This document shows positions 33,210-46,345 of a DNA stretch of 64,000 nucleotides, piece after piece. Under the pieces are notes generated by a model. The model saw nothing but the letters and a program-made list of their open reading frames with translations. It did not search any database and was not told the origin of the DNA. The DNA comes from Pedobacter sp. D749. GTDB taxonomy: Bacteria > Bacteroidota > Bacteroidia > Sphingobacteriales > Sphingobacteriaceae. How positions within the stretch are numbered: position 1 is the stretch's first letter; the number at the start of each line of letters is the position of its first letter. The stretch lies in NCBI RefSeq assembly GCF_019317285.1, contig NZ_CP079218.1, positions 2,418,001 to 2,482,000 on the forward strand. The letters run 5' to 3'. A program made the position numbers and the translations under genes.

Positions 33210-33401
33210 ATGAAAAATCAATCAGAAAAAATCACATTGAGCTTAGAAGACCTTCAGTTAGAAAGTTTTGTAACCAGTATTGACAGTGAAGTTGCGATGC
33301 GTTTATCAGGTGGTTTAGGTAATGTATCAGAACCTACACACACTGAACAAACAGATGACCATCATACCCCACCGGTAAGATGTACCACGGTAATCTGCTA
33401 G
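33210..33401 (+). CDS. Class I lanthipeptide precursor (pinensin-like leader)
   Basis: 63 aa. The leader 'KITLSLEDLQLESFVTSI' has the amphipathic pattern of Bacteroidota class I lanthipeptide leaders, followed by a double-glycine site at G34-G35 for the C39 peptidase of the exporter. The 28-residue core begins LGNVSEP and holds Ser40, Thr43, 45, 48, 53, 59, 60 and two cysteines, C58 and C63, so at most two (methyl)lanthionine rings near the C-terminus are possible. The core middle is unusually acidic and His-rich (H44, D49-D50, H51-H52). It is preceded by the operator and promoter, and followed by a terminator. It converges on the biosynthetic operon. Confidence 0.85.
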   Translation: MKNQSEKITLSLEDLQLESFVTSIDSEVAMRLSGGLGNVSEPTHTEQTDDHHTPPVRCTTVIC

Positions 33402-33417
33402 TTACTTAATTCAATTT

Positions 33418-33446
33418 CAAGGCGCCATTTGGCGCCTTGTTTATTC
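33418..33446 (+). terminator. Rho-independent terminator of lanA
   Basis: CAAGGCGCC (33418-33426), loop ATTT, GGCGCCTTG (33431-33439), then TTTATT. It is 16 bases after the lanA stop and ends two bases before the LanC-like stop, insulating the converging transcripts. Confidence 0.9.
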
Positions 33447-35336
33447 CTCTACACATAAAAAACCACTCATTAACAACAGGCGGATTTGTAATACAATTTT
33501 TTGACTGATTTGTTCCTTTTCCGTAGCTGGTTTAAAATATTCGTGGGTAATTTCATCAATTAATTGGGATGTTTTCATTTTCCTATTAACCAAAGATTCA
33601 ACGATGATGGCTGAAAAGGTTCCGATTTTAATTTCTTCCACACCACTTTCATGGCTATATAAAAGAAGCTTACTACCGTTTTCATCTTCTCCGAAATATT
33701 TTACATGATCACTCAGTTTTAAATCCAGCACCATGAAATCGGAATCTGATTTTTGATTGGCACTTTCTGCATTTTTCTTAAGGTAAATATTTTGTTGCTG
33801 ATAGCTAAAATAACCTTTATGAAGTTTCCATAGCTTCAATAGTTTTGATTCCAACCGGAATGATTGCGTGATTGCTTCATTCGCTCCTTCTATCTGGCTG
33901 ATTTTGACAGACAATACATCACTAAACTCATCAATATTCTTTACTTCATACAGTGCACCAATGCCGACACCTAACTGATCAAGTTTTCCAATAGTTCTTT
34001 TGAAGTATGACGAAAAAATTTTCCGTTTAATATCAACCGTTGAGAACCGTCCTTCCAGATTAATTATTTTTGCAGGTTTGGGTAAAGTTGGTTTTGCCAC
34101 TGAATCAGATTGATCTCCAGCTATCAATTGTAAAAGCACATAACCTACACCGGCTTTTCCAGAGAAAAGACCATAATCATCTGCTCCACATGATAAATAT
34201 TCGCTGTAGCTGTTTGTTTTTTGATATTGTTTAATGGCTCCGTCAATCGCATCACAAATATGATCAGCTATTCCGGCTCTGTCCTTATTGCACATCAAAA
34301 ACGGAATCATTCCGCTGTAGCCGCTTACCAAAGTGAAATCTGGCCGGGGTTTGTTTTGAAGATCTGATAAACATTTTTCAAGTGTGCGGTTACAATGTTC
34401 TGAATAGATTTCTTTTTCAGTGAGCGCAAATGCAAGACTCCTTGATAAACCCACTCCTGCCGCACCATGTGCCCAGGCATTCGCCCCTGCCATATCTGAA
34501 ATAAAAGTTTCCAGTTGCCAGAGATGTGCGCCTGGTTTTGAAAGTTCATAATTGCCTATCCGCAAATCAAGCCAGTTATTTGCAGGGGAATGATAATATT
34601 GCATTTCATAAGCCAACACTTCTTCCGCCAGATACAACAAACCAGGTTCATCAAAATACATACTCAATTGCATCAGACAATATGCAATACCTGATGCCCC
34701 ATGAGAAAACCCGGTCATGCTATCGTATGCCTTTTTCGATTGATGATAATCCCATTTCAACCCCATCTCTGATACCCGTGCTTCCTGAATTAACCGGTCT
34801 AAGAGTAAATGGATCAATCTTAAAACTTCTTCATGCTGACTGTGGTGATAAAGTAGTGTAAATATCAGTAAATTACCTGTATAGCCACTTAATAAATCTG
34901 CTTTCAGTAATTCCGTGCTAAGCTGAGTTTGGTTGGATAATGTTAAAAGCAATGCATTATTCAGGTATTTCTGGATTCCGGTTGCTTCGTAAATCTTTAA
35001 ATTTGTATAAATCACTCCACCAAGGCCGGTATAGAACGCAAAGAATTTCGGTTTGAGGATGGCTTCAGATTTCATCATTCTACTCATCATTTTATCAATT
35101 AAACTGATGTGCGCTTCGCTTTGATCAAAACGATAAAGTTCAAGAAAGAATAAGGCTATTCCGCAATTGCCATTAAAAATATCATAGCTTTCCTGAAAGG
35201 CATATTCATTCGGATTGATGTAATAAGGCGTTGGCCACCATGCTTCATCCACTGTTTCCTTTTTATGCAAGAGCAAGTCGTTCTTTATTTCATGAAGATG
35301 ATTGGTAAAAACTTCGATCTGAGCAGCTGTAAACAT
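33441..35336 (-). CDS. LanC-like protein without zinc ligands, with extra C-terminal domain
   Basis: 631 aa. Residues 1-405 carry the seven LanC toroid repeats with GxxG motifs ('FNGNCGIALFF' 54-64, 'LSGYTGNLLIF' near 150, 'FSHGASGIAYC' 210-220, 'AWAHGAAGVGLSR' 287-299, 'LVSGYSGMIPF' 336-346, 'FSGKAGVGYVLLQL' 391-404). In active cyclases the fifth motif is W-C-H-G and the sixth C-H-G; here Ala289 and Val337-Ser338 replace the three zinc ligands. About 200 residues follow, whose end ('KTSQLIDEITHEYF', 'LLLMSGFLCVE') looks like a PqqD/RRE-type winged helix that could bind the precursor leader. It may act as a scaffold, or as a cyclase using a different chemistry as in class III enzymes. Last gene of the operon. 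Confidence 0.8.
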   Translation of the reverse strand: MFTAAQIEVFTNHLHEIKNDLLLHKKETVDEAWWPTPYYINPNEYAFQESYDIFNGNCGIALFFLELYRFDQSEAHISLIDKMMSRMMKSEAILKPKFFAFYTGLGGVIYTNLKIYEATGIQKYLNNALLLTLSNQTQLSTELLKADLLSGYTGNLLIFTLLYHHSQHEEVLRLIHLLLDRLIQEARVSEMGLKWDYHQSKKAYDSMTGFSHGASGIAYCLMQLSMYFDEPGLLYLAEEVLAYEMQYYHSPANNWLDLRIGNYELSKPGAHLWQLETFISDMAGANAWAHGAAGVGLSRSLAFALTEKEIYSEHCNRTLEKCLSDLQNKPRPDFTLVSGYSGMIPFLMCNKDRAGIADHICDAIDGAIKQYQKTNSYSEYLSCGADDYGLFSGKAGVGYVLLQLIAGDQSDSVAKPTLPKPAKIINLEGRFSTVDIKRKIFSSYFKRTIGKLDQLGVGIGALYEVKNIDEFSDVLSVKISQIEGANEAITQSFRLESKLLKLWKLHKGYFSYQQQNIYLKKNAESANQKSDSDFMVLDLKLSDHVKYFGEDENGSKLLLYSHESGVEEIKIGTFSAIIVESLVNRKMKTSQLIDEITHEYFKPATEKEQISQKIVLQIRLLLMSGFLCVEE

Positions 35337-35341
35337 AGAAT

Positions 35342-36223
35342 TTAATTGGAATGATATACTTGAAAAATATATTCGATGCAGGTTTTGATCACATATATCA
35401 GGTAAGCTTCTTCCTGATTGGCAATGCCCAGCCGATTATTGGTCATGTGTATCAGGCTTGAAACGATTTCCTGGAATTTAAATTCATCAAATTCTGCTGT
35501 TTGATACTGATCCATAACTTTCTGGCTGCACATCATATACTTTGCTAAATCATCATGAAGACTGTTTACGGCAAGCTCTTCCCAGAAAGAGGCTGCTGCC
35601 AGGCAAACTATTTCTTTTTTGGATAAAAATGCCTGTTCAAATTGATTGAGCCAAAATGCCTTTTCATGGTCCCCGGAAAAACCTGAACGATAAAGTTTAG
35701 GTAACCATCCGTTTATAAAAAAACCACATAATCTGATGATTTTGTCAGGCTTTAACCCGGCACAGAATAATAGAACCAGGTGAAGCTTTACCGCCTGTAA
35801 AGTAATCTGACTGCTATTTTCCCTAATCAGTAACCAGTTTAAAACATAGGTAGATGAAGCGGCAAAATGCTGTTCTGCCCAGGCGATACTTTTTACATTC
35901 CCATAACGGCTAATCTCAGGATCATATTCAACGTACAGAACTTTTTCCACCCGGAAAGAATTGCTTTGAAATTGACAAAGATCATTACTTAACGAACTGG
36001 TAATCTGTTCATGGTAAAACGAATTGGCATGAAGTCTCAACCGAATATGACTCCCTCCTTCCCAATAGCGGATAAAGAACCAGGGAGAATCAGCAAAAAA
36101 ACAAAATTTCCATTTACTGATGAAGGGCGCAATGGCCTGTTTCAAAAGCTCATCAGCATTTCCGGTATAATAAATATGCAGACTGAGCCAGGTATAACTG
36201 ATTGGTTTGATTGTGCTATCCAT
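35342..36223 (-). CDS. Thiopeptide-type bacteriocin biosynthesis protein (SpaB_C, LanB elimination domain)
   Basis: 293 aa. 'WLSLHIYYTGNADELLKQAI' near 13-32 and 'WFFIRYWEGGSHIRLRL' near 68-84 are the hallmarks of the SpaB_C family, the C-terminal part of LanB dehydratases that removes glutamate from glutamylated Ser/Thr to form dehydroamino acids. Here it is a separate protein, as in split LanB systems such as the pinensin cluster. Its ATG lies inside the end of the glutamylation gene (8-bp overlap), so the two halves are coupled in translation. Confidence 0.9.
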   Translation of the reverse strand: MDSTIKPISYTWLSLHIYYTGNADELLKQAIAPFISKWKFCFFADSPWFFIRYWEGGSHIRLRLHANSFYHEQITSSLSNDLCQFQSNSFRVEKVLYVEYDPEISRYGNVKSIAWAEQHFAASSTYVLNWLLIRENSSQITLQAVKLHLVLLFCAGLKPDKIIRLCGFFINGWLPKLYRSGFSGDHEKAFWLNQFEQAFLSKKEIVCLAAASFWEELAVNSLHDDLAKYMMCSQKVMDQYQTAEFDEFKFQEIVSSLIHMTNNRLGIANQEEAYLIYVIKTCIEYIFQVYHSN

Positions 36224-38888
36224 TATACCACTGCATTAAATATTCTTTAACTCCACTTTCCACAGGTACCGGAAGCACTTCTTCTATGGTGATGTTATTT
36301 CCTGCTCTTGCTAAAAGCCGTTTAAACATAGCTACAAACAACGGCTTATCTAAAGTTAAATATTGTGGTTTATAGTCATCATGCAGGCCTTCTTTTTTGT
36401 TGATCTCGCCATCTACAGCTTTGTTTTGATAAGAACGTTTCCTTAGAAACAAAAAGAAATTTATTGGTATTTTCTGCAATTCGAACCAGCTATGTAAGCG
36501 AATAAAATATTCAAAATCCGCCTCCATTGTTTGCTGAACAGGGATTACAGCAGTTTTTATTCTCCATGTTTTTCTCCTGATGATTACTGTTTCTTCAAAT
36601 GTGATTCTTGGAAGCAGGTAAACATCAGGCGCTGAATTTGCAAATCTGCCTAGATCATACTGATCTATCAGCTGGATAAAAGGCTGTAATGAAATCCTTG
36701 CATCAGGATTAAAGTGCGCCAATAACTGGTATAAGTTGGAACGGTTATAAAAAGATTCCAAACTCAAATCATAGCTGTAGAGTTCATGATCATTTAGCCA
36801 TAGTCTAAGCTTGTTCGTATCCGAATCAAGGCAAACCCTTAAATTACCAACATTAATTTGCTGATCTGCAGGATAGATATTATTTCCAGAGGGAAGCGTA
36901 AGCTCGTGACTGAGCAAAGGAGGATGAATATTTGCGTTAAAGGTTGACGCATCATTTAGTTCAGCTTTAATTACTTCTGGATTTAATGACTCATTTTGAG
37001 CAATAAAATCTTCCTGTATTTTTGAATCAAACAAAGACAGAAATCTTCCGCTTACCTTTCCCATTCCGGGTAAAAGCGAATTGATTACCCCATAAAGCTG
37101 GTCTCGTTTCTCGCACACATAAAATTGTACAAAAGCGCCTACCGATGAAATTTCTCCAAGATCCGGTTGAACAGGTAAATCTGCAAAAAAATCAGCGGTT
37201 AGGTTTAATGTATCATCTAAAGTAGTTTGTTGCTCCAGTTTGGTAAGAACAGCTATTTTCCAAGGCATTGAATCTGTTAATGCCTGATCATTCTGGTTTA
37301 CCTGCTCCATTTCGGGCTTTTTAATATAGAAATAGTAGTCCCGATAAAACTCGGTTATTTTTATCTTTTCATGTCTAGGATAGTGTTTAATATAAAAATC
37401 ACGCATCTTGATGCGCTCTTTTCGCATCACATCTAGCGGTAGCAGAAATTTGGCAAGCGCATTCGTTTTAGAAGCAAACTCCGCTATCCCTTTTTTGGGC
37501 AATACTTCAGTTTCATCTGTAAAACAATCTTCAAAAAAAATATTACGTGCCGAGAAATAGTAAGGAACAAAGTTGTTGGTTAAAAAGGCCGCTTGGTTTT
37601 GAGATTCTTTTTCTCCAATGATTTTTTTCTCCTCAGCACTCGTATAGTAAGGTAAGTTTGCTTCTTTTTGTAATTTAAGAAAAGTGCTGTTCACTGCTTT
37701 TTCTGCCTCCTGTAAAATCACGTAGCGTTTATCAGTTCCTGCTGTTGCATAGCTTTCACGGTGAATTTGCAATGTTTCGAAAAGGCTGATTAAAGGCTTT
37801 ACTAAGTGAATTTTATCTGGTACAGCTTTAAAAAACGACAATAGTTTTATGTCCCAGTTTTCTTCCATCCCGGAAAAGCCAAAGCCTGGCTCGAACAAGC
37901 CGGTGTTGATCAATTTTATGATATAAGCTTTAATGCTTTCGTGGCTGGCATCTTCTACATGATCTGACAGATATTTTATTAATTCGGCTAAAGTAACTGA
38001 TTGGTGGTTTTGATGAAAATAATTGACAATCAAGAGTTGCAAACCATTTGCAGGCAATTGCTGAAAGGATTCGATGTTATTGAAATTAGTCAGGAATTGT
38101 ATTTTATCACCTTTGATTTCTGCTGTGATATTAATTTTCAGCAATAAATATTCATTCAATACCGGATGTTGCCTCAGTATGGATCGTAAGTATTCGAAAA
38201 GAATATTGTTCAGCTTCAGTTTACTCTGAACTTTAGGATTTTTATTTGGATGGTTTATCAGATGAGCACTGGTGGTCATCAGGCCAGTAAAAGTAAAGCT
38301 GCTAAATGGCGAAGTTTTAAAAGCCATCCGGCTGAGATACCGCAATAAACTAAATTCCATTCGCAGCTCTTTTTGCTTAAAATTTTCCGGGGCTTTTGTA
38401 ACAAAACTTTTCAGTTGGGTGTAAAGCACCGGGCTGGATAACATTAAAGCATTTTGCAGCGCTGGGTTTAATGCCATTTGCTGAACAAGTTTTTGATGTA
38501 ATCTTAATTCGTGGTTAAATAGCTTCTTGTTTACCTCAAAGAATTTATTGATTAGGGTTTCGTTTAACAGGTAAGCTTCAAAATATTCAGATAATAATTT
38601 GGCATTCAAGCCTTTAATAAGCGTATATTGTTCTGCATCTACCCGCTTGTTATTAAATATTTTTCTTTTAAGATTGATTAACTGTTGCCTCAATTGATCG
38701 TCGGTTTGTTCACTGATGATCGGAAATAAGGCATCACATAAAGTATTTTTTAATTCTTCCCTTCTTTTGAGATATTCATGGTGTGTTTCTATCAGCTTTT
38801 CGCCTTGATGAAATGTAAGCTGATTGAATACATCGTGGTTAAGATTCGCATATCGAACTAAGGAATAAGGGAAAATTCTGACTGACAT
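36216..38888 (-). CDS. Lantibiotic dehydratase, LanB glutamylation domain (split type)
   Basis: About 890 aa. Transfers glutamate from glutamyl-tRNA to Ser/Thr side chains of the precursor peptide. The N-terminal LanB domain begins 'MSVRIFPYSLVRYANLN'; 'RYLSRMAFKTSPFSSFTFTG' near 190-209 matches the LanB 'R-x-x-x-K-x-x-P-x-x-x-F' segment, and the long middle and C-terminal region follow the LanB pattern ('DVYLLPRITFEETVIIRRKT' toward the end). The frame starts at 38930, overlapping the exporter gene by 17 bp; I prefer ATG 38888 because the family N-terminus starts there. The partner elimination protein is encoded next. Confidence 0.9.
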   Translation of the reverse strand: MSVRIFPYSLVRYANLNHDVFNQLTFHQGEKLIETHHEYLKRREELKNTLCDALFPIISEQTDDQLRQQLINLKRKIFNNKRVDAEQYTLIKGLNAKLLSEYFEAYLLNETLINKFFEVNKKLFNHELRLHQKLVQQMALNPALQNALMLSSPVLYTQLKSFVTKAPENFKQKELRMEFSLLRYLSRMAFKTSPFSSFTFTGLMTTSAHLINHPNKNPKVQSKLKLNNILFEYLRSILRQHPVLNEYLLLKINITAEIKGDKIQFLTNFNNIESFQQLPANGLQLLIVNYFHQNHQSVTLAELIKYLSDHVEDASHESIKAYIIKLINTGLFEPGFGFSGMEENWDIKLLSFFKAVPDKIHLVKPLISLFETLQIHRESYATAGTDKRYVILQEAEKAVNSTFLKLQKEANLPYYTSAEEKKIIGEKESQNQAAFLTNNFVPYYFSARNIFFEDCFTDETEVLPKKGIAEFASKTNALAKFLLPLDVMRKERIKMRDFYIKHYPRHEKIKITEFYRDYYFYIKKPEMEQVNQNDQALTDSMPWKIAVLTKLEQQTTLDDTLNLTADFFADLPVQPDLGEISSVGAFVQFYVCEKRDQLYGVINSLLPGMGKVSGRFLSLFDSKIQEDFIAQNESLNPEVIKAELNDASTFNANIHPPLLSHELTLPSGNNIYPADQQINVGNLRVCLDSDTNKLRLWLNDHELYSYDLSLESFYNRSNLYQLLAHFNPDARISLQPFIQLIDQYDLGRFANSAPDVYLLPRITFEETVIIRRKTWRIKTAVIPVQQTMEADFEYFIRLHSWFELQKIPINFFLFLRKRSYQNKAVDGEINKKEGLHDDYKPQYLTLDKPLFVAMFKRLLARAGNNITIEEVLPVPVESGVKEYLMQWYNG

Positions 38889-38913
38889 AAGATGGTTATA
38901 GGTTAATGGAAAA

Positions 38914-41115
38914 TCATTGGCCAAGTTCAAGTTGATTTTTGATCAGGTGGTAATAGTGCCCTTTGATTTGAAGCAACTGCTGATGCGTACCAACTTCTTT
39001 AATTTCACCTTGCTGAAGCACTACAATTTGGTCTGCATTTTTTACCGTACTGAGCCTGTGGGCAACGATCAGCACCGTTTTACCCTGAAAAAAAGTATTG
39101 AGATTATTTACGATTGAAAGTTCATTCTGTGCATCTAACGAATTAGTGGCCTCGTCAAGAAAAACGTAATCCGGATTACGGTAAATCATCCTGGCGATTA
39201 ACAGGCGCTGTTTCTGGCCTTCACTTAAGCCAAATCCATCTCTACCGACCACGGTTTCATAGCCGAAGGGCATTTTCAGGAAAAAAGCATGCATGTTGGC
39301 CATTGTAGCTGCCTCATGAAGACGATTAAAATCTTTAACTTCCGCTCCTGCGAAAATATTATTAGCGATAGTATCCATGAAAACATATCCATCCTGCATC
39401 ACTACACCGCAATGTTTTCGCCATGATCTGGCATTAATGGCTTCAATTTTTTGCGCACCAATTTCAATACTGCCTGCCGAAGAAGCATAAAATTTAAGTA
39501 AAAGCTTTATCAATGTTGTCTTCCCGCTGCCGCTGGTACCCACAATAGCTGTTACTTTTCCGGCTGGAATTTTCAAACTGAAATTTTTTAATACCTGTGC
39601 ACTGTGTTTGCCCCCGTATTGAAAAGATACCTGATTCAGCTCAATATCTACCGGTCCATCCCCATTCACTTCATCATCCATGCCAAAATCTTCTTCAGTT
39701 TCTTGTTGCACTTCATCTATACGCAATAAACTGAATGCTGCATTTTGCGAAACCCTTGAAAATTCCACTAACTGGTTTACCGGAGCATTTAACTGCCCAC
39801 AGATATAAGTAATGGCCAGCATGCCACCCAATGTTACCTGATCATGGATCACCAGCATGGCTGCAGCATAAGTGATCAGCACGTTCTTTACCTCGTTAAT
39901 AAAAGCACCTACCCCCTGCATTCGCTGATCAAGTTGCAATGCTTCAAGTTTGAGATCGAAAGATTGATCTTGTAATCCTTCCCAAAGCTGTTTTTTTTCT
40001 TCTTCACTCCCAGTTAATTTGATTTCCTGCATGGCATAGAAAATTTCCAGGAGCAGTTGCTGGTTGGCAGAAAGTACCTTGAACTTCTTCTGATCAATCA
40101 TTTTTCGCTTCTGTTGAAAAGAGTTAGACCAGATTACGCTGATGCCAGCGCCGACAATAAATAGCAGAAAAATCTGCCAGTTGTAATGAAGCAAAACACC
40201 ACCAAGTACAATTAAGGTAATTGCCGATAAAATAAAATTGATGAGTGAATTGGTCAGGAATTCCTCTATGCGTTGATTATCATTCACGCGCTGCATATTA
40301 TCTCCCGCCTGCCGGTTGTCAAAAAATGAAAAGGGCAATTTCATCAGTTTTGCCAGAAAATCTTTCAGCATGGTGATGCTCGTTCGGGCACCAATTCTAA
40401 ATAACAATCTCCCCCGAACAAAATCCATCAGCATCCGGCCAGAAAAAAGCATCAGCTGCCCTAAACAAATCAGCAATAACAAATTGATATTTTTCCCTTG
40501 AATGCCCTTATCTACAATCATTTGGGTTAGCAAAGGAATCAAGAGTGAGAAACCACTGGCCAGTGCCAAACTCACCGCTATGGGGAACCAGCCTTTTCGG
40601 TGTAATTTTAGGTAAGGAATAAGGTTCCACAACGAAGTTTTATGCTCCGGCTTGCTATCCATTTCATGAAATGAACGGGTTGTCTCTAATAACAATACCC
40701 GACCAATCTGTGTATCATCATTGATATTCCAGCCCGATAAAAATGCAGCCGTATCTAATTTTATTTTACTGTTAAGCGCCGGATCTGCAAGATAGACTGA
40801 TTCATCATTTACTTCATAAACCACCACATAATGTTCTTTTTGCCAGTGCACTATGCAAGGCATGGGTAGTCTGTGTAGTTTATTATATTCCAATTCCGCA
40901 GCCATGGTTTTGAAGCCAATGTTTTCTGCGGCATCAATTAAATCAAGCATTGTGGTGCCTTGTTTCCCGATTTTGCAAAGCTTTCTTAAATGCTGCATGG
41001 AAAAATTCTTACCGTGATAGCCAGCAATCATTTTAAGGCAAACCGGACCACAATCCATGGCATCTGGCTGCTTATAAAACGGGTACTTTCTCCTGCGGAT
41101 AAAATCTTTAACCAT
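38914..41115 (-). CDS. Peptidase-containing (C39) ABC exporter for the lanthipeptide
   Basis: 733 aa. The N-terminal C39 peptidase domain (about 1-125) has catalytic C22 in 'DAMDCGPVCLKMI', H95 in 'KEHYVVV' and D111 in 'LADPA'; it cuts after double-glycine leaders such as that of the 33210 precursor. Five to six membrane helices follow (about 155-430), then the ATPase with Walker A 'GTSGSGKTTLIK', signature 'LSEGQKQRLLIARMI' and Walker B 'DYVFLDEATNSLDA'. The frame is open from 41184, but ATG 41115 gives the standard start 'MVKDFIRRRKYPFYKQPDAM'. First gene of the LanT-LanB-SpaB_C-LanC operon. Confidence 0.94.
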   Translation of the reverse strand: MVKDFIRRRKYPFYKQPDAMDCGPVCLKMIAGYHGKNFSMQHLRKLCKIGKQGTTMLDLIDAAENIGFKTMAAELEYNKLHRLPMPCIVHWQKEHYVVVYEVNDESVYLADPALNSKIKLDTAAFLSGWNINDDTQIGRVLLLETTRSFHEMDSKPEHKTSLWNLIPYLKLHRKGWFPIAVSLALASGFSLLIPLLTQMIVDKGIQGKNINLLLLICLGQLMLFSGRMLMDFVRGRLLFRIGARTSITMLKDFLAKLMKLPFSFFDNRQAGDNMQRVNDNQRIEEFLTNSLINFILSAITLIVLGGVLLHYNWQIFLLFIVGAGISVIWSNSFQQKRKMIDQKKFKVLSANQQLLLEIFYAMQEIKLTGSEEEKKQLWEGLQDQSFDLKLEALQLDQRMQGVGAFINEVKNVLITYAAAMLVIHDQVTLGGMLAITYICGQLNAPVNQLVEFSRVSQNAAFSLLRIDEVQQETEEDFGMDDEVNGDGPVDIELNQVSFQYGGKHSAQVLKNFSLKIPAGKVTAIVGTSGSGKTTLIKLLLKFYASSAGSIEIGAQKIEAINARSWRKHCGVVMQDGYVFMDTIANNIFAGAEVKDFNRLHEAATMANMHAFFLKMPFGYETVVGRDGFGLSEGQKQRLLIARMIYRNPDYVFLDEATNSLDAQNELSIVNNLNTFFQGKTVLIVAHRLSTVKNADQIVVLQQGEIKEVGTHQQLLQIKGHYYHLIKNQLELGQ

Positions 41116-41136
41116 AATATTTTTTAAAAACCGTAA

Positions 41137-41153
41137 ATGCAATGTAGTTGCAA
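41137..41153. promoter_or_regulatory. Palindromic operator 2 (ATGCAAT-GTA-GTTGCAA)
   Basis: Same architecture as the perfect site at 33110-33126: 7-base arms, 3-base spacer, with GTTGCAA conserved. It lies 22 bp upstream of the exporter ATG (minus strand) and 50 bp upstream of the divergent permease gene. The TTG at 41148-41150 is placed as a -33 element for the plus-strand promoter. Confidence 0.65.
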
Positions 41154-41167
41154 ATATGTAAAATATA

Positions 41168-41184
41168 ATGCAACTTTGATGCAT
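41168..41184. promoter_or_regulatory. Palindromic operator 3 (ATGCAAC-TTT-GATGCAT), overlapping a -7 box
   Basis: Arms match operator 1 with two changes; it starts 31 bp from operator 2, close to three helical turns and close to the 34-bp spacing of the pair upstream of lanA. CAACTTTG (41171-41178), one mismatch from TAnnTTTG, would be the -7 box of the permease gene at 41203, so the site would sit directly on the promoter. Confidence 0.65.
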
Positions 41185-41202: not shown

Positions 41203-42648
41203 ATGAAAAAAAACAACTTTGCCATTTGGCAAATGCTGATAAAAAAAGAGTTGCTGGTAATTTACCGGAACAAGACGATGCTCATCTCCACGGTAATGAT
41301 CTGGACACTTTTTATTGCGGCTGCCATTTGTACATACTTAGATTATCAATCGGCACACAAACAAAGAATTGAAGCCAACACAATTTTCAGGCAGCAATGG
41401 GCGCATCAACAACGCAATCCACATGATGCGGCGCATTTTGGCACTTACCTTTTTAAATCGATCAATCTGTTAAACGTATTTGATACCGGATTAGATGACT
41501 ATGCCGGGAATACCTACCGTATTGAAGCCCATGTGCAGCACGAACCTAATGCAGCAAATGCGGAAGGAAATGATAGTTCCATGCGTTTCGGCAGGCTCAC
41601 ACTTGCTTTGATTTTGCAATTGCTCATTCCGCTGCTCATCCTTTTCATCACAGCAACCAGCATTACCGTAGAAAAAGAACAGGGTACATTAAAAATGCTG
41701 CTGGCTCAGGGATTAAGCACTTCAAGGTTAATATGGGTTAAGGTAATTTCAAGTTACCTTTTTATCATAACGGTGGTTCTACCAGTCTTTTTATTGATGA
41801 TCATGATGTTATTGGTTTCTCCCGGATCTGACGTACTGCTCACCAGATTACTTTGGATGATATTAGCATTTCTATTGTATTTTTTATTCATTGCCTTGCT
41901 GGGCATATTGATTTCAGCCTGGAGTGGTAATTCTGGAAAAGCACTTTTAACTGCCTTGAGCTGCTGGATATTAATGAGCATCGTTTCGCCGAAATTACTC
42001 ACCGGGATTGCCGATCGCAGCTATCCGCCTATGTCTCGCGCAGCTTTTACTGAGCTTGTTGAACAGGGCTACAGAAAGGGGCTTAACGGCCATGATCCTT
42101 ATGCAGAACGCGGGGAACGTTTCGTTAATAATATTCTTAAAAAATACAATGTAGACAGCATTAGTGAGCTTCCTTTTAATGTTGAGGGTTTAACTTTTCA
42201 ATACCATGAGGATTATCGTAATATGGTGTTTAACTACTATCTGGAAAAAGTATCGCGACAGTTTGATAAACAACAAAACTTTTTAACGATAGCGGGAATC
42301 TTTAATCCTTTTCTCTCCATCAAGCGGATTTCGATGGCGCTTTCTGGCACCGATTATTATCATCACCAGTATTTTTTTAAACAGGCGCAAACTTACCGCA
42401 ATCACTTAATTAAAACGCTGAATCTGCAACTCGCCATGCATAGTAAAGATGTAAAGGGTGAGTATACCTTGGGGCCTCAGTATTTTGCCCAGCTTCAAAA
42501 CTTTGATGATCAGCTTCCACCTATCCATAAGGTGATCCAGTTAAACCAGATTGGACTATATGCTATTGCCGGATGGATTCTGTTACTCGCCGCATTGCTC
42601 CAGTTTATCGCTTCACGTTCTTTAGCCCGCCATTATGAACCTGCTTAA
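41203..42648 (+). CDS. ABC-2 type transporter permease (DUF3526-like), first of pair
   Basis: 481 aa. One N-terminal helix (about 27-47), an extracytoplasmic region of about 100 residues, then five helices between about 143 and 260 with 'TATSITVEKEQGTLKMLLAQ' (150-169) as the coupling segment typical of ABC-2/DUF3526 permeases, a second extracytoplasmic part and a final helix near 455-473. It starts the operon divergent from the exporter and shares its palindromic operators. No ATP-binding subunit is encoded next to it. Possible roles are self-immunity or transport of the peptide. Confidence 0.85.
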   Translation: MKKNNFAIWQMLIKKELLVIYRNKTMLISTVMIWTLFIAAAICTYLDYQSAHKQRIEANTIFRQQWAHQQRNPHDAAHFGTYLFKSINLLNVFDTGLDDYAGNTYRIEAHVQHEPNAANAEGNDSSMRFGRLTLALILQLLIPLLILFITATSITVEKEQGTLKMLLAQGLSTSRLIWVKVISSYLFIITVVLPVFLLMIMMLLVSPGSDVLLTRLLWMILAFLLYFLFIALLGILISAWSGNSGKALLTALSCWILMSIVSPKLLTGIADRSYPPMSRAAFTELVEQGYRKGLNGHDPYAERGERFVNNILKKYNVDSISELPFNVEGLTFQYHEDYRNMVFNYYLEKVSRQFDKQQNFLTIAGIFNPFLSIKRISMALSGTDYYHHQYFFKQAQTYRNHLIKTLNLQLAMHSKDVKGEYTLGPQYFAQLQNFDDQLPPIHKVIQLNQIGLYAIAGWILLLAALLQFIASRSLARHYEPA

Positions 42649-44059
42649 AATCGTATTTAAATTTGAACTGCGCATGCTTCTCAGACAGCGATTGGTATTG
42701 TGCTTAATTGCTTTCTTCTTTCTAACAGGCCTTTACAGTATCTATGATGGCTACCATTTAACCAAAAAGCAACTTACGGCTATTGATAGTCTGGAACGAA
42801 ATTACGATCAGAAATTTAATGAGCTGGCTAAAAATTTTACAGCAGATACCACTACATCGGCAGGAAAAACCAGCTATGCGCAGGCAGGAATTCCATCTGT
42901 GATTGAATACCGGAATCCGCTCAATGCGGTACACAAACCTGCAACACTATCGTCACTATCTGTAGGACAAAGGGATATATTACCTTATTATGAGTTAATT
43001 ACCAGAAAACGCAATGCAGTAAATGCGCCAAATGCTGAAATTGCCAATCCGGAAATGCTCGCAGCCGGAAATTTCGATCTCGCCTATGTGATCATTTACC
43101 TTTTCCCATTATTGGCTATCGCATTATCATATAATACCTGGTCGAAAGAGAAAGAACAACAAACTGATCGCCTGTTGGCTGTTCAGGGAGAGCATCCTAA
43201 CCGCATCATCGTTTATAAACTTGGCTTTCGTTTTACAGTGGTAGCATTACTGGCCTGGTTGCTGAGTGCTATCGGAATCATAAGTGATTCGCAACTCAGT
43301 TCCTTTAACCTGACTACTTCCTTATTATGGTTTTTTACCGTTACAGTATATCTGGCATTCTGGTTTTCAATCTGTTTAATGCTGATCAAACTCGGTAAAA
43401 GTTCTGCTGTGAATGCACTCTACCTACTGGCTGCATGGTGCTTCTTTCTCCTGGTATTGCCTGCCCTTACCAACGCCTTCATTCGCCAGAAGTATCCTAT
43501 TCCATTAAAAACGGATGAAGCCGTTGCTTTACGTGAAAACAGCGAAGCCATTTGGGCAATGCCTAAACAAGCGCTTATTGATACGTTTTATGCGAATCAC
43601 CCAAAATATAATTCCTTAAAAAGCGCTGCGGATACCAGCGAGAATAGCACCGTTCGTTTCAGTGCTTATTATGATCTTCTGGGCAGGAAAATGACTTCGG
43701 TGATAATACATTACAATCAGTATCCACGAAAGCAAAATTTGATTTCAGCTAAATTAAGCTGGATTAATCCGGCTACGAAAACACAATACTTGCTCAACTC
43801 AATAGCAGAAAGTGGCCTGACGGATTATTTATCTTATCAAAACCAGGTCAATCACTTTCAAAAAACATGGGTCGATTTCATGACAGGTTATATTATTCAT
43901 AATAGAAATTTAAGCCTTGCTGACTTACATCATCTTCCCGAATTTAAAATGCAACCAGCTCCGGAAAAGAACACAAATATCTTAACAGACATCCTTGGGC
44001 TGCTGATTATTTCCCTCTCTATCCTATTCTTGAGTACAAAAATCAAATTACCATTATAA
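42635..44059 (+). CDS. ABC-2 type transporter permease (DUF3526), second of pair
   Basis: 474 aa, with the same topology as the preceding gene product: helix near 12-30, periplasmic region, helices between about 145 and 275 with 'ALSYNTWSKEKEQQTDRLLA' (162-181) as coupling segment, second periplasmic domain and final helix near 450-470. It overlaps the first permease gene by 14 bp, so the two are likely made together as a heterodimer. An ATPase is needed but is not present in the window. Confidence 0.87.
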   Translation: MNLLKIVFKFELRMLLRQRLVLCLIAFFFLTGLYSIYDGYHLTKKQLTAIDSLERNYDQKFNELAKNFTADTTTSAGKTSYAQAGIPSVIEYRNPLNAVHKPATLSSLSVGQRDILPYYELITRKRNAVNAPNAEIANPEMLAAGNFDLAYVIIYLFPLLAIALSYNTWSKEKEQQTDRLLAVQGEHPNRIIVYKLGFRFTVVALLAWLLSAIGIISDSQLSSFNLTTSLLWFFTVTVYLAFWFSICLMLIKLGKSSAVNALYLLAAWCFFLLVLPALTNAFIRQKYPIPLKTDEAVALRENSEAIWAMPKQALIDTFYANHPKYNSLKSAADTSENSTVRFSAYYDLLGRKMTSVIIHYNQYPRKQNLISAKLSWINPATKTQYLLNSIAESGLTDYLSYQNQVNHFQKTWVDFMTGYIIHNRNLSLADLHHLPEFKMQPAPEKNTNILTDILGLLIISLSILFLSTKIKLPL

Positions 44060-44092: not shown

Positions 44093-46345
44093 ATGAAGAA
44101 AAAACTTTACTTGTTATTAATCACCCTTATTTACATTCCCCAGCTATTTGCACAACAGCAAAGCAAAACGAAATCTACATTAGATTCTAACAGAACGCAG
44201 CAGTTAAGAGAAATCAGTATTGCCGGAAAAAAAGCTGTTAAATTGCGAAAAGACACCTTATCTGCAGCCTTGAGAATGCAGATCCCACTACTTCAGATGC
44301 CTCAAAACATCATTAGTATTTCCGCAGCATTGATACAGCAGCAAGGAAGTTTTCAATTAAAAGACATGGCCAGGAATGCCAGCGGAATCTATTTCGGATA
44401 CAACAGTTCGCCTTTTGACAATTCTGCTTCCATTAAAATCAGAGGGTTTAATGCCGCTACCACCATTAACGGAATGCCCAGCCGACTGGTGCTTGGCGCA
44501 ACACTTGATGATGAAGCGCTAATTGAAAATCTGGAATTCATTAAAGGTCCGGCCGGATTTATCAGTGCTGTTGGCGAACCCGGCGGAACATTAAACATTT
44601 CTACCAAAACACCGAAAGAAAAGCTACTGAATGTACAGCTTAACGGAGGTAATTACAACCTTTTCAGATCTACAGTTGATGTTGGCAGTAAAGCTTTAGA
44701 CAAAGGGTTTTCTTATCGTTTCAACGCAGCATATCAGCGGCAAAATTCTTATCTGAACAAGATGAAAACGGAGAAATATGTGATTGCTCCAGTAGTTCAG
44801 TATAATTTCAGCCCGCGGACTTATGTCATTGCCGAATATAATTACATTCGCGGTGAAGTAAAAAATGGTTCATCAATCAATAAACTTCGCCAGGATAAAG
44901 ATGTATTGCAAGATCCGATTGGCGTAAATTACAGCGCGGGTATTGGCCTTCCGTTGAGTGTTGCACAAACACATACGGGCAGATTTGTAGCCGTTCACAA
45001 ATTCAATTCGAACTGGCAGCTAACTTCCCAATCTAATTATGTGAAGGCTCCTTCTACGCAGTGGTATATGGTTTCATCAAATAACAGAACTTCGATCAGC
45101 TTTGATGATGCGGGTAAAACTAAACGGATATCCAGTAATTCTAATTTGTTAGGTGAAACCTATAACACCAACTTATTTCTGAATGGTAAATTTAACACCG
45201 GGCAGTTTAAACATACCCTTTTGGTTGGTGGCGATTATACTAAAGGAAAAGATTCGCTTTCAACCTATTATGGAACCAATCCAATCGCGTTCGACCGCAA
45301 CAATCCGAATTATGATGTCGATCCAAATATGGTAGCTGTAACCAAAAGATCCATCAGGCAGGAAAATAAAATTCATTACACGGCGGCGTACGTTTATGAC
45401 AACATTGCCTTAAATAAATTGCTACTGACTATTGGAGCGCGATATACGGAATACAGAAATCAGAATATTTTAACGACCACAAAAGGTCCACGTACCCCTG
45501 ATCAATACAAGCAACATGCCTTTTCACCTCGTTTAGCACTAACTTTTACTCCGGATTCTACTTCTTCCATCTACTTTTTGTATGACCAATCTTTTGTTCC
45601 GCAAACGGGTCAGGTAGTAACTGAAACTACAGCCAGTGCAACGGCAGGACAGCGGACAGTTACGGGAACAAGACCTATAGACCCTCAATTCGGAAATAGC
45701 TTCGATCTTGGTTTTAAAAAAAAATGGTTTAATGGCAAGTTGCTAACCACCATAAACGGTTTCCACTCGGCAAAACAAAATGTATCTGCCAGGGATTTTA
45801 GAAGTTACACAGCTGCTGCGGGCGCTGTAGCTTATTACCTGCAATTAGGCGAAGTAGTGAGTAACGGGATTGAAGTTGATGTGATTGGAAACATCACCGA
45901 TCGCCTTTCATTAGTGGCGAATTACACCTATGTAGATGCTAAAATTACCAAAGACAATAACCTTGATCCTACACCAGACAATCCTTCTATTATAGGACAA
46001 AAAATGCCTGATGTGCCTCAACAAATTTTTAATACCTGGATTCAATATAGCATTCCATTAAAGGGGTATAATAAAATTTCACTGAGTGCCGGCCAAACCA
46101 GTATTGCAAAACTCTCTGCAATTAGTCAGCGGGATGTTTTTTTGCCGAATTATACCAAGTTTGATGCTGGGGTGAGCTTTACAAATCCGAGATATTGGGT
46201 TAGGGTAATTGCAGATAACCTGGCGAATAAACGCTATATTTCTTCCGGGGATATTACAACTGATTTCCCATATACCGGGAATAACTATTTCTTTGTTGAA
46301 GGAGAACCCTTTAACATCAGGTTTTCTGTTGGCATTAAGTTTTAA
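44093..46345 (+). CDS. TonB-dependent siderophore-type outer membrane receptor
   Basis: 750 aa. Signal peptide 1-20 (L-F-A-Q-Q), plug domain (about 60-180) with 'SIKIRGFNAATTINGMPSRL' near 121 and 'ENLEFIKGPAGFISAVGEPG' near 145, and a 22-strand barrel ending in aromatic 'NIRFSVGIKF'. The plug motif 'G-P-A-x-x-x-x-G-x-G-E-P-G-G-x-x-N' is that of siderophore receptors. It lacks the carboxypeptidase-regulatory-like domain common in Bacteroidota receptors. It lies 33 bases after the DUF3526 permease gene, in the same direction, and so appears part of the lanthipeptide locus. Confidence 0.9.
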   Translation: MKKKLYLLLITLIYIPQLFAQQQSKTKSTLDSNRTQQLREISIAGKKAVKLRKDTLSAALRMQIPLLQMPQNIISISAALIQQQGSFQLKDMARNASGIYFGYNSSPFDNSASIKIRGFNAATTINGMPSRLVLGATLDDEALIENLEFIKGPAGFISAVGEPGGTLNISTKTPKEKLLNVQLNGGNYNLFRSTVDVGSKALDKGFSYRFNAAYQRQNSYLNKMKTEKYVIAPVVQYNFSPRTYVIAEYNYIRGEVKNGSSINKLRQDKDVLQDPIGVNYSAGIGLPLSVAQTHTGRFVAVHKFNSNWQLTSQSNYVKAPSTQWYMVSSNNRTSISFDDAGKTKRISSNSNLLGETYNTNLFLNGKFNTGQFKHTLLVGGDYTKGKDSLSTYYGTNPIAFDRNNPNYDVDPNMVAVTKRSIRQENKIHYTAAYVYDNIALNKLLLTIGARYTEYRNQNILTTTKGPRTPDQYKQHAFSPRLALTFTPDSTSSIYFLYDQSFVPQTGQVVTETTASATAGQRTVTGTRPIDPQFGNSFDLGFKKKWFNGKLLTTINGFHSAKQNVSARDFRSYTAAAGAVAYYLQLGEVVSNGIEVDVIGNITDRLSLVANYTYVDAKITKDNNLDPTPDNPSIIGQKMPDVPQQIFNTWIQYSIPLKGYNKISLSAGQTSIAKLSAISQRDVFLPNYTKFDAGVSFTNPRYWVRVIADNLANKRYISSGDITTDFPYTGNNYFFVEGEPFNIRFSVGIKF

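Follow-up and report, generated by a model that had tools for sequence, protein, structure and literature searches.

The gene at 33441-35336 on the minus strand of a 64,000-nucleotide stretch of Pedobacter sp. D749 DNA (contig NZ_CP079218.1, positions 2,418,001 to 2,482,000; here called the window) encodes a 631-residue protein in which a lanthionine cyclase-like (LanC) toroid lacking the zinc ligands is joined to a C-terminal RRE domain, the latter recognised from a structural model. We consider the protein to be, on balance, probably a pinensin-type class I cyclase that would close (methyl)lanthionine rings without zinc, a view of its catalysis that is drawn from aligned sequences. The LanC-RRE gene is a real, well-bounded feature of a genome that consists of a single contig of 5.84 Mb: its open reading frame (ORF) starts with ATG, is intact, and has the position given, with no strand, in the initial annotation, which had also rightly placed it in a class I lanthipeptide operon; a split LanB, a C39 transporter and a precursor gene accompany it. 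The parts of the gene that matter here are the following.

33441..35336, minus strand: LanC-RRE gene, zinc-less lanthionine cyclase-like toroid plus C-terminal RRE, 631 aa
34104..35264, minus strand: LanC toroid, residues 25-411 as aligned (Pfam LANC_like; profile against LicM2 6st5)
33735..34103, minus strand: linker, residues 412-534, called helical only from the alignment and a poor model
33813-33830, minus strand: WKxHKG motif in the linker, residues 503-508
33444..33734, minus strand: RRE domain, residues 535-631 (AlphaFold2, Foldseek, VIA, hhalign)
34896..34898, minus strand: Asp147 codon, position of NisC Asp141
34701..34703, minus strand: His212 codon, position of the enolate-protonating LanCL1 His219 / NisC His212
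34470..34472, minus strand: Ala289 codon, position of the first zinc Cys (NisC Cys284)
34467..34469, minus strand: His290 codon, position of the enolate-stabilising LanCL1 His277 / NisC Tyr285
34323..34328, minus strand: Val337-Ser338 codons, positions of the second Cys and the His/Cys ligand (NisC Cys330, His331)

Zinc site and remaining catalytic positions

Residues 50-411 match Pfam LANC_like (E 7e-45, 153.5 bits against a cut-off of 23.2), and no other domain, kinase and lyase domains included, was detected up to E 1. Among NCBIfam models, that of the LanM subfamily comes first for the protein, at E 7e-50 and short of its cut-off. A published tree likewise suggests a relationship between the Bacteroidetes LanCs that go with pinensin-type precursors and the cyclase domains of LanM (PMC7268733; here and below, papers given by PMC number are drawn on in part). 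In the alignments, NAWAHG (A289) and LVSG (V337, S338) occupy the places of the zinc motifs WCHG and LCHG, both in zinc-bearing relatives and in the solved LicM2 structure 6st5 (profile E 4e-53), which bears out the earlier claim that the zinc ligands are absent: their positions are occupied by Ala289, Val337 and Ser338 and the triad of Cys, Cys and His/Cys is missing. Among 66 class I LanCs, CHG was found in 98% and WCYG in 95% (Marsh et al., PMC3091789).

The comparison of these positions among homologues, as proposed in the initial annotation, drew on 26 distinct zinc-less sequences, of which named Pedobacter records supply three (L008 equals L004 and L009 equals L006, each pair being counted once; L089 lacks its end at a contig edge). 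Since position 289 is Ala in all 26 zinc-less rows and Cys in all 18 zinc-bearing rows, and since the pattern at positions 337 (C in 13, V in 12 and S in one zinc-less row) and 338 (S in 24, T in two, and nothing else) is alike recurrent, the replacement of the zinc ligands is not due to chance.

The residues expected to act on the substrate are retained. Asp147 is present in 26/26 zinc-less and 17/18 zinc-bearing rows, His212 in 26/26 and 18/18, and His290 in 26/26 and 14/18. The pair Asp141 and His212 of NisC is thus represented by D147 and H212 in the alignment, D147 being equated with Asp141 on the basis of the D-x-x-x-G-x-x-G motif as in PMC3091789 and not by superposition. The toroid had been described as otherwise intact; this stands for the GxxG motifs and for D147, H212 and H290, by alignment only. 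No Cys is invariant among the zinc-less rows (the nearest, C322, is found in 25/26), and H212 and H290 are the only invariant His of the toroid, so that no invariant alternative site of three Cys/His exists, although such a set was looked for as the finding that would have spoken against zinc loss. Invariant Asp or Glu residues of the toroid number five (D147, D205, E244, D257 and D387). Residues invariant specifically in the zinc-less lineage are S150, R187, S189, K194, D205, S206, Y247 and N286, and the linker motif WKxHKG occurs in 25/26 zinc-less rows (it is missing in L031) and in none of the ten zinc-bearing rows with a tail.

Studies of LanCL1 give zinc the part of activating the thiol, His219 (NisC His212) that of protonating the enolate and His277 (NisC Tyr285) a role at the enolate oxygen (PMC9934072). 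Since the positions of His290 and His212 are kept while the zinc function is lost, and since the class III enzyme ThurKC, a LanC fold without zinc ligands, was shown to cyclise metal-free (PMC10604976), we favour zinc-independent ring closure. We propose that the split LanB, classified by Pfam, would dehydrate Ser and Thr of the 33210-33401 precursor, this being its family function, and that the C-terminal RRE, whose fold is supported by model and profile, would bind the leader and keep the dehydrated core at the toroid. In the cavity, His290 may polarise the carbonyl of the dehydro-residue, while His212 together with Asp147 would handle proton transfers as in zinc LanCs, these positions being conserved and their roles taken from published LanC work. 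Because the thiol-activating zinc is absent, the Cys thiol would instead owe its activation to a base in the protein, to close tethering, or to both; WKxHKG and the eight lineage-specific residues named above are candidates for the missing function. The C39 transporter, judged by its family, would finally cut at the double glycine and then export the product.

C-terminal RRE domain and its origin

The last 97 residues were modelled by AlphaFold2 together with three near relatives. In the best of five models (predicted local distance difference test score, pLDDT, 82.8; predicted template modelling score 0.69; the remaining four reached pLDDT 65, 50, 47 and 46), residues 535-631 adopt a beta-beta-beta-alpha-alpha-alpha order. 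All six matches of this model in Foldseek at E up to 0.001 are leader-bound structures of lasso-peptide RRE proteins (6jx3 and the TbiB1 entries 5v1u and 5v1v; TM 0.68-0.75, E 3e-4 to 9e-4), and VIA yielded Z scores of 11.9 for 6jx3_B and 11.3 for 5v1v and 5v1u. A second tier in VIA comprised TigE (8.7), PqqD (5sxy, 8.4), a heterocyclase (4v1v, 8.3), NisB (8.1) and MibB (7.7), and scores of this height were also reached by proteins not recognised as RRE (8hkr 8.3, 5doo 8.2, 3dee 8.1). In hhalign, the tail profile matched a PqqD profile at 67% with a score of 29.8, while 60 column shuffles scored no more than 15.5 and at most 1.5%; the PqqD profile was built from 27 of 30 loci of the phylum, L157, L161 and L168 being omitted for an unclear frame. 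As modelled, the tail therefore holds the RRE fold, a PqqD-like winged helix of three strands followed by three helices, and the RRE-like tail suspected earlier is borne out by the model, its fold matches and the profile comparison. The winged helix, the lack of which would have told against this assignment, is present in the model, and the suggested run against PqqD profiles agrees with it. The extent first given, about residues 565-631, was too short, since the modelled domain begins at residue 535.

Scans by sequence alone brought up no curated model above its cut-off. PF05402 had no hmmscan match in 23 tails and none in the window's own genome at E 1, the best NCBIfam match of the tail, MftB2 (E 0.02, below cut-off), was seen in one of 20 members, and searches of PDB and Pfam with tail profiles gave nothing convincing. 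Among 43 control windows of cluster proteins compared by hhalign, LanB columns 288-383 scored 29.4 and the next window 19.0. These columns were meant as a negative control and were recognised only post hoc as LanB's own RRE-like segment (37884-38144), which resembles the LanC tail as strongly as PqqD does; the LanC tail and this LanB region match at 63%. Because of this equal resemblance, the RRE of LanB and the tail of LanC may be related.

The initial annotation regarded the LanC-RRE arrangement as unusual for class I. The fusion itself is there, but it is not peculiar to the zinc-less protein. Ten loci (L075, L085, L086, L087, L088, L091, L092, L197, L198 and L199) encode LanCs that have the zinc ligands (C, C, H) and end in a tail of 213-355 residues; at E 0.001 the tail model matches L075, L085, L087, L088 and L197 and has no match in L086, L091, L092, L198 and L199. 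Six of these tails (L075, L085, L088 and L197-L199), combined into one profile, reach 97% against the zinc-less tails and 81% against PqqD. L090 is a zinc-bearing relative without a tail. Since the zinc-bearing relatives are also tailed, and RRE-like in the six compared jointly, the fusion looks older than the loss of zinc on these sequence comparisons. A pinensin-type leader lies in the retrieved region of seven of the ten loci (L075, L085-L088, L091 and L092), with 7-12 Cys per peptide; in the regions around L197-L199 it is found in L201 and L202 and not in L200.

In a tree reduced to 40 rows by leaving out L003, L135, L136, L138, L092 and L034, a single branch (support 100/99, stem 1.10) has the 26 zinc-less rows on one side. 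Two zinc losses then suffice, the second being that of L093 and L095. The ratio of non-synonymous to synonymous substitution rates (dN/dS) of the LanC domain is 0.06-0.19 in 10/10 pairs, which partly share sequences. The loss of the zinc ligands is thus stable in these alignments, in a lineage under purifying selection. Recent loss would have counted against the interpretation, and neither trees nor dN/dS gave a sign of it; recent pseudogene decay is ruled out by the dN/dS values and by 26 distinct sequences, only the gene of genome G218 being split. The second zinc-less group (L093:9089-11110 and L095:9216-11258) is a more degenerate LanC-like protein with a long tail, which adjoins non-ribosomal peptide synthetase (NRPS) and DUF6734 genes in G293 and G320, two genomes that also hold the main cluster; the copy in L093 carries Tyr in place of both Asp147 and His212.

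Gene cluster and distribution

The genes around the LanC-RRE gene complete a class I lanthipeptide cluster with both LanB parts, transporter and precursor.

33210..33401, plus strand: precursor LanA, 63 aa, pinensin-type leader, GG and a 28-residue core ending CTTVIC (NF038180)
35342..36223, minus strand: split LanB, elimination part (Pfam Lant_dehydr_C, E 2.8e-42)
36216..38930, minus strand: split LanB, glutamylation part (Pfam Lant_dehydr_N, E 1e-27)
37884-38144, minus strand: RRE-like segment in the LanB glutamylation part, residues 263-349 (hhalign)
38914..41184, minus strand: C39-peptidase ABC transporter, of a family that cleaves at GG and exports (Pfam Peptidase_C39, ABC_membrane, ABC_tran)
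41203..44059, plus strand: two ABC-2 type permease genes (41203-42648 and 42635-44059), kept with the cluster
44093..46345, plus strand: TonB-dependent receptor, present in related clusters whose retrieved region extends that far

The LanA gene faces the LanC-RRE gene, upstream of which the split LanB and the C39 ABC transporter follow in the same direction. The LanA leader exceeds the cut-off of the pinensin leader model NF038180 leader_pinensin (35.3 bits against 24, E 7.7e-9), which places the cluster, by its leader, in the pinensin family. PADLOC matched neither LanC nor the two LanB parts.

The named records encoding the closest relatives of the protein are those of Pedobacter alluvionis (94%), P. 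terrae (90%) and Pedobacter sp. AJM (89%), and a search of 399 genomes from the organism's own taxonomic family gave matches at E 1e-10 in 34. Zinc-less loci share the gene order LanC, LanB-C, LanB-N, C39 ABC; each region has an ABC-2 gene (beyond LanA in L083), and LanA adjoins LanC except in L105. A precursor was found in 25/25 zinc-less clusters examined, each core having exactly two Cys and the core ending CTTV[IV]C in 24/25. Since this two-Cys precursor persists while the LanCs of these loci diverge down to 28% identity with the 33441-35336 protein, the zinc-less lineage appears to be bound to a single type of product. Across the genus, the precursor is present in 28 of 145 genomes; in 27 of them, including six additional genomes, the retrieved flank contains a LanC with WAHG and xSG/xTG, and in the 28th, G347 (L105), the zinc-less LanC is about 5 kb away from the precursor.

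In searches of further families, and in the samples of the class and phylum searched with the LanC or leader model, no zinc-less LanC was found outside the organism's own taxonomic family, which as a sample is no proof of absence; no relative was confirmed on viral contigs, and plasmids gave two LanM matches only. Genomes G862 and G877 (L042-L074, L197-L202) carry twelve and seven pinensin-type leaders dispersed across each genome. Because six of the regions examined (L069-L074) contain neither LanB nor LanC, a single LanC-RRE enzyme encoded far away may act on many substrates there. Two small ORFs (L076:5261-5449 and L077:9880-10041) encode a pinensin-like leader that ends right after the double glycine, with no core; the one in L076 lies near a C39 transporter gene.

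Alternative readings and known systems

The initial annotation left a choice between a precursor-binding scaffold and a zinc-independent cyclase. As a non-catalytic scaffold, RRE and toroid would hold leader and dehydrated core, perhaps as a chaperone for the transporter or LanB, and both rings would form uncatalysed. All three zinc ligands are gone and an RRE fold is present, as such a role would have it, and a short, nearly fixed two-Cys core might close by itself once tethered. It is nevertheless an unlikely role for a protein in which D147, H212 and H290 are invariant in 26/26 rows under purifying selection, and the addition of glutathione to dehydrobutyrine without enzyme was very slow in a published assay (PMC9934072). 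The zinc-independent cyclase also fits better with the two Cys in 25/25 precursors and with the 6/25 genomes that hold no other LanC domain. Alternatively, a metal might still be bound at a relocated site, for instance by His212, His290, Asp147 and nearby acids. For this purpose the toroid still offers two His and five Asp/Glu that are invariant, and Cys is retained at position 337 in 13/26 rows, but the lack of any invariant three-Cys/His set, and the fact that the equivalent His act on the substrate and not on a metal in published LanC structures (PMC9934072), render such a site distinctly improbable.

It is very improbable that no (methyl)lanthionine is made at all, the product being uncyclised, disulfide-bridged or otherwise modified: zinc-less LanC-like proteins have been reported outside lanthipeptide clusters (PMC10352776), and the second zinc-less group sits in NRPS operons, but the cluster studied here has a LanB, a pinensin-type leader and two conserved Cys, and pinensins contain two methyllanthionines (PMC13060382). 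Least credible, and extremely unlikely, is cyclisation in trans by a zinc-dependent LanC encoded elsewhere in the genome. The genome of the window does contain two further LANC_like loci, a LanM with WCHG/CCG and a free-standing LanC with C, C and H; yet six of the 25 zinc-less genomes scanned (G061, G154, G185, G200, G338 and G347, with completeness of 99-100) are free of further LanC domains at E 0.001, and therefore of any zinc LanC that could act in trans, so that this was rejected as a general explanation. In a seventh genome, G218, the only LanC domain at the same threshold is that of its own frame-split gene. G377 was among the 25 genomes scanned and stands outside the precursor count, its cluster region not being included. 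The zinc-less LanC of G218 (L100:8745-10672) is split over two frames (141 and 508 residues), and precursor, LanB and transporter adjoin it.

Several points weigh against the zinc-free cyclase that we prefer. NisC requires its zinc ligands (PMC3091789), and the position of Asp771, the possible base of ThurKC, is Ser or Thr in the zinc-less rows (PMC10604976). The very slow rate without enzyme was obtained for glutathione and not for an intramolecular Cys (PMC9934072). The full-length AlphaFold2 model, built from four near-identical sequences, has a mean pLDDT of 37, which makes its toroid unusable for cavity geometry. Once an outgroup of four distant, free-standing LanCs is added (46 rows), the zinc-less rows no longer form one side of a branch; this tree needs 2 changes and the zinc-less group falls on one branch side in 13% of the bootstrap trees, while the approximately unbiased test does not reject a single zinc-less clade (p 0.242). 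As a tentative proposal, with slightly less than an even chance, we suggest that lanthionine cyclisation without metal arose a second time and independently: one LanC-RRE lineage with pinensin-type leaders in Bacteroidota would have lost the zinc site, kept His290, His212 and Asp147, and would compensate by leader tethering and a new protein element, candidates for which are WKxHKG and the invariant R187, K194, D205, S206 and N286.

Zinc is regarded as essential in cyclases of classes I, II and IV, with class III as the published exception (PMC10604976). A zinc-less class I LanC that keeps its His pair would separate the activation of the thiol from that of the electrophile and offer a natural test of which is needed, for which the zinc-bearing sister proteins are matched controls. 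Through the fusion, a class I cyclase would gain a hold on the leader of its own, which would be of use in engineering, and if the reading is true and Chitinophaga pinensis is alike, all pinensins would be made zinc-free. The portions of the literature consulted (PMC7268733, PMC13060382, PMC12241602, PMC10604976, PMC12710340, PMC7470986, PMC4662063, PMC8358304, PMC9248904, PMC10352776, PMC3091789, PMC9934072, PMC9993889) describe neither a zinc-less LanC beside LanB nor a LanC-RRE fusion, and we provisionally regard both as new.

The cluster resembles the class I pinensin system of C. pinensis in its leader, which is above the NF038180 cut-off, and in its split LanB, as stated for pinensin (PMC7268733); pinensin-like clusters with varied cores are known from six strains (PMC9248904). 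Like NisC and the LanM cyclase domains of LicM2 and CylM, the protein belongs by sequence to the same toroid family and keeps the Asp, His and enolate positions; unlike them, it lacks the zinc triad and carries an RRE fused at its C terminus. In ThurKC the ligand positions are Ser/Phe/Asp, whereas they are Ala/Val/Ser here, and Ser/Asp replace Asp141/His212, whereas Asp and His are kept in our protein (PMC10604976), which also differs from class III LanKC in having no detectable kinase or lyase domain at E up to 1. Residues 535-631 match the fold of the RREs of lasso B1 proteins (TbiB1 5v1u/5v1v, 6jx3), PqqD 5sxy, NisB and MibB, but share 6-18% identity with them, are fused to a LanC and have a leader binding that is predicted only. 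Bacteroidales LanC-like proteins near radical S-adenosylmethionine and carbohydrate enzymes are reported to be without zinc motifs as well; unlike the cluster described here, they reportedly occur without LanB in the genomes screened, and a role in lanthipeptide formation was thought unlikely for them (PMC10352776).

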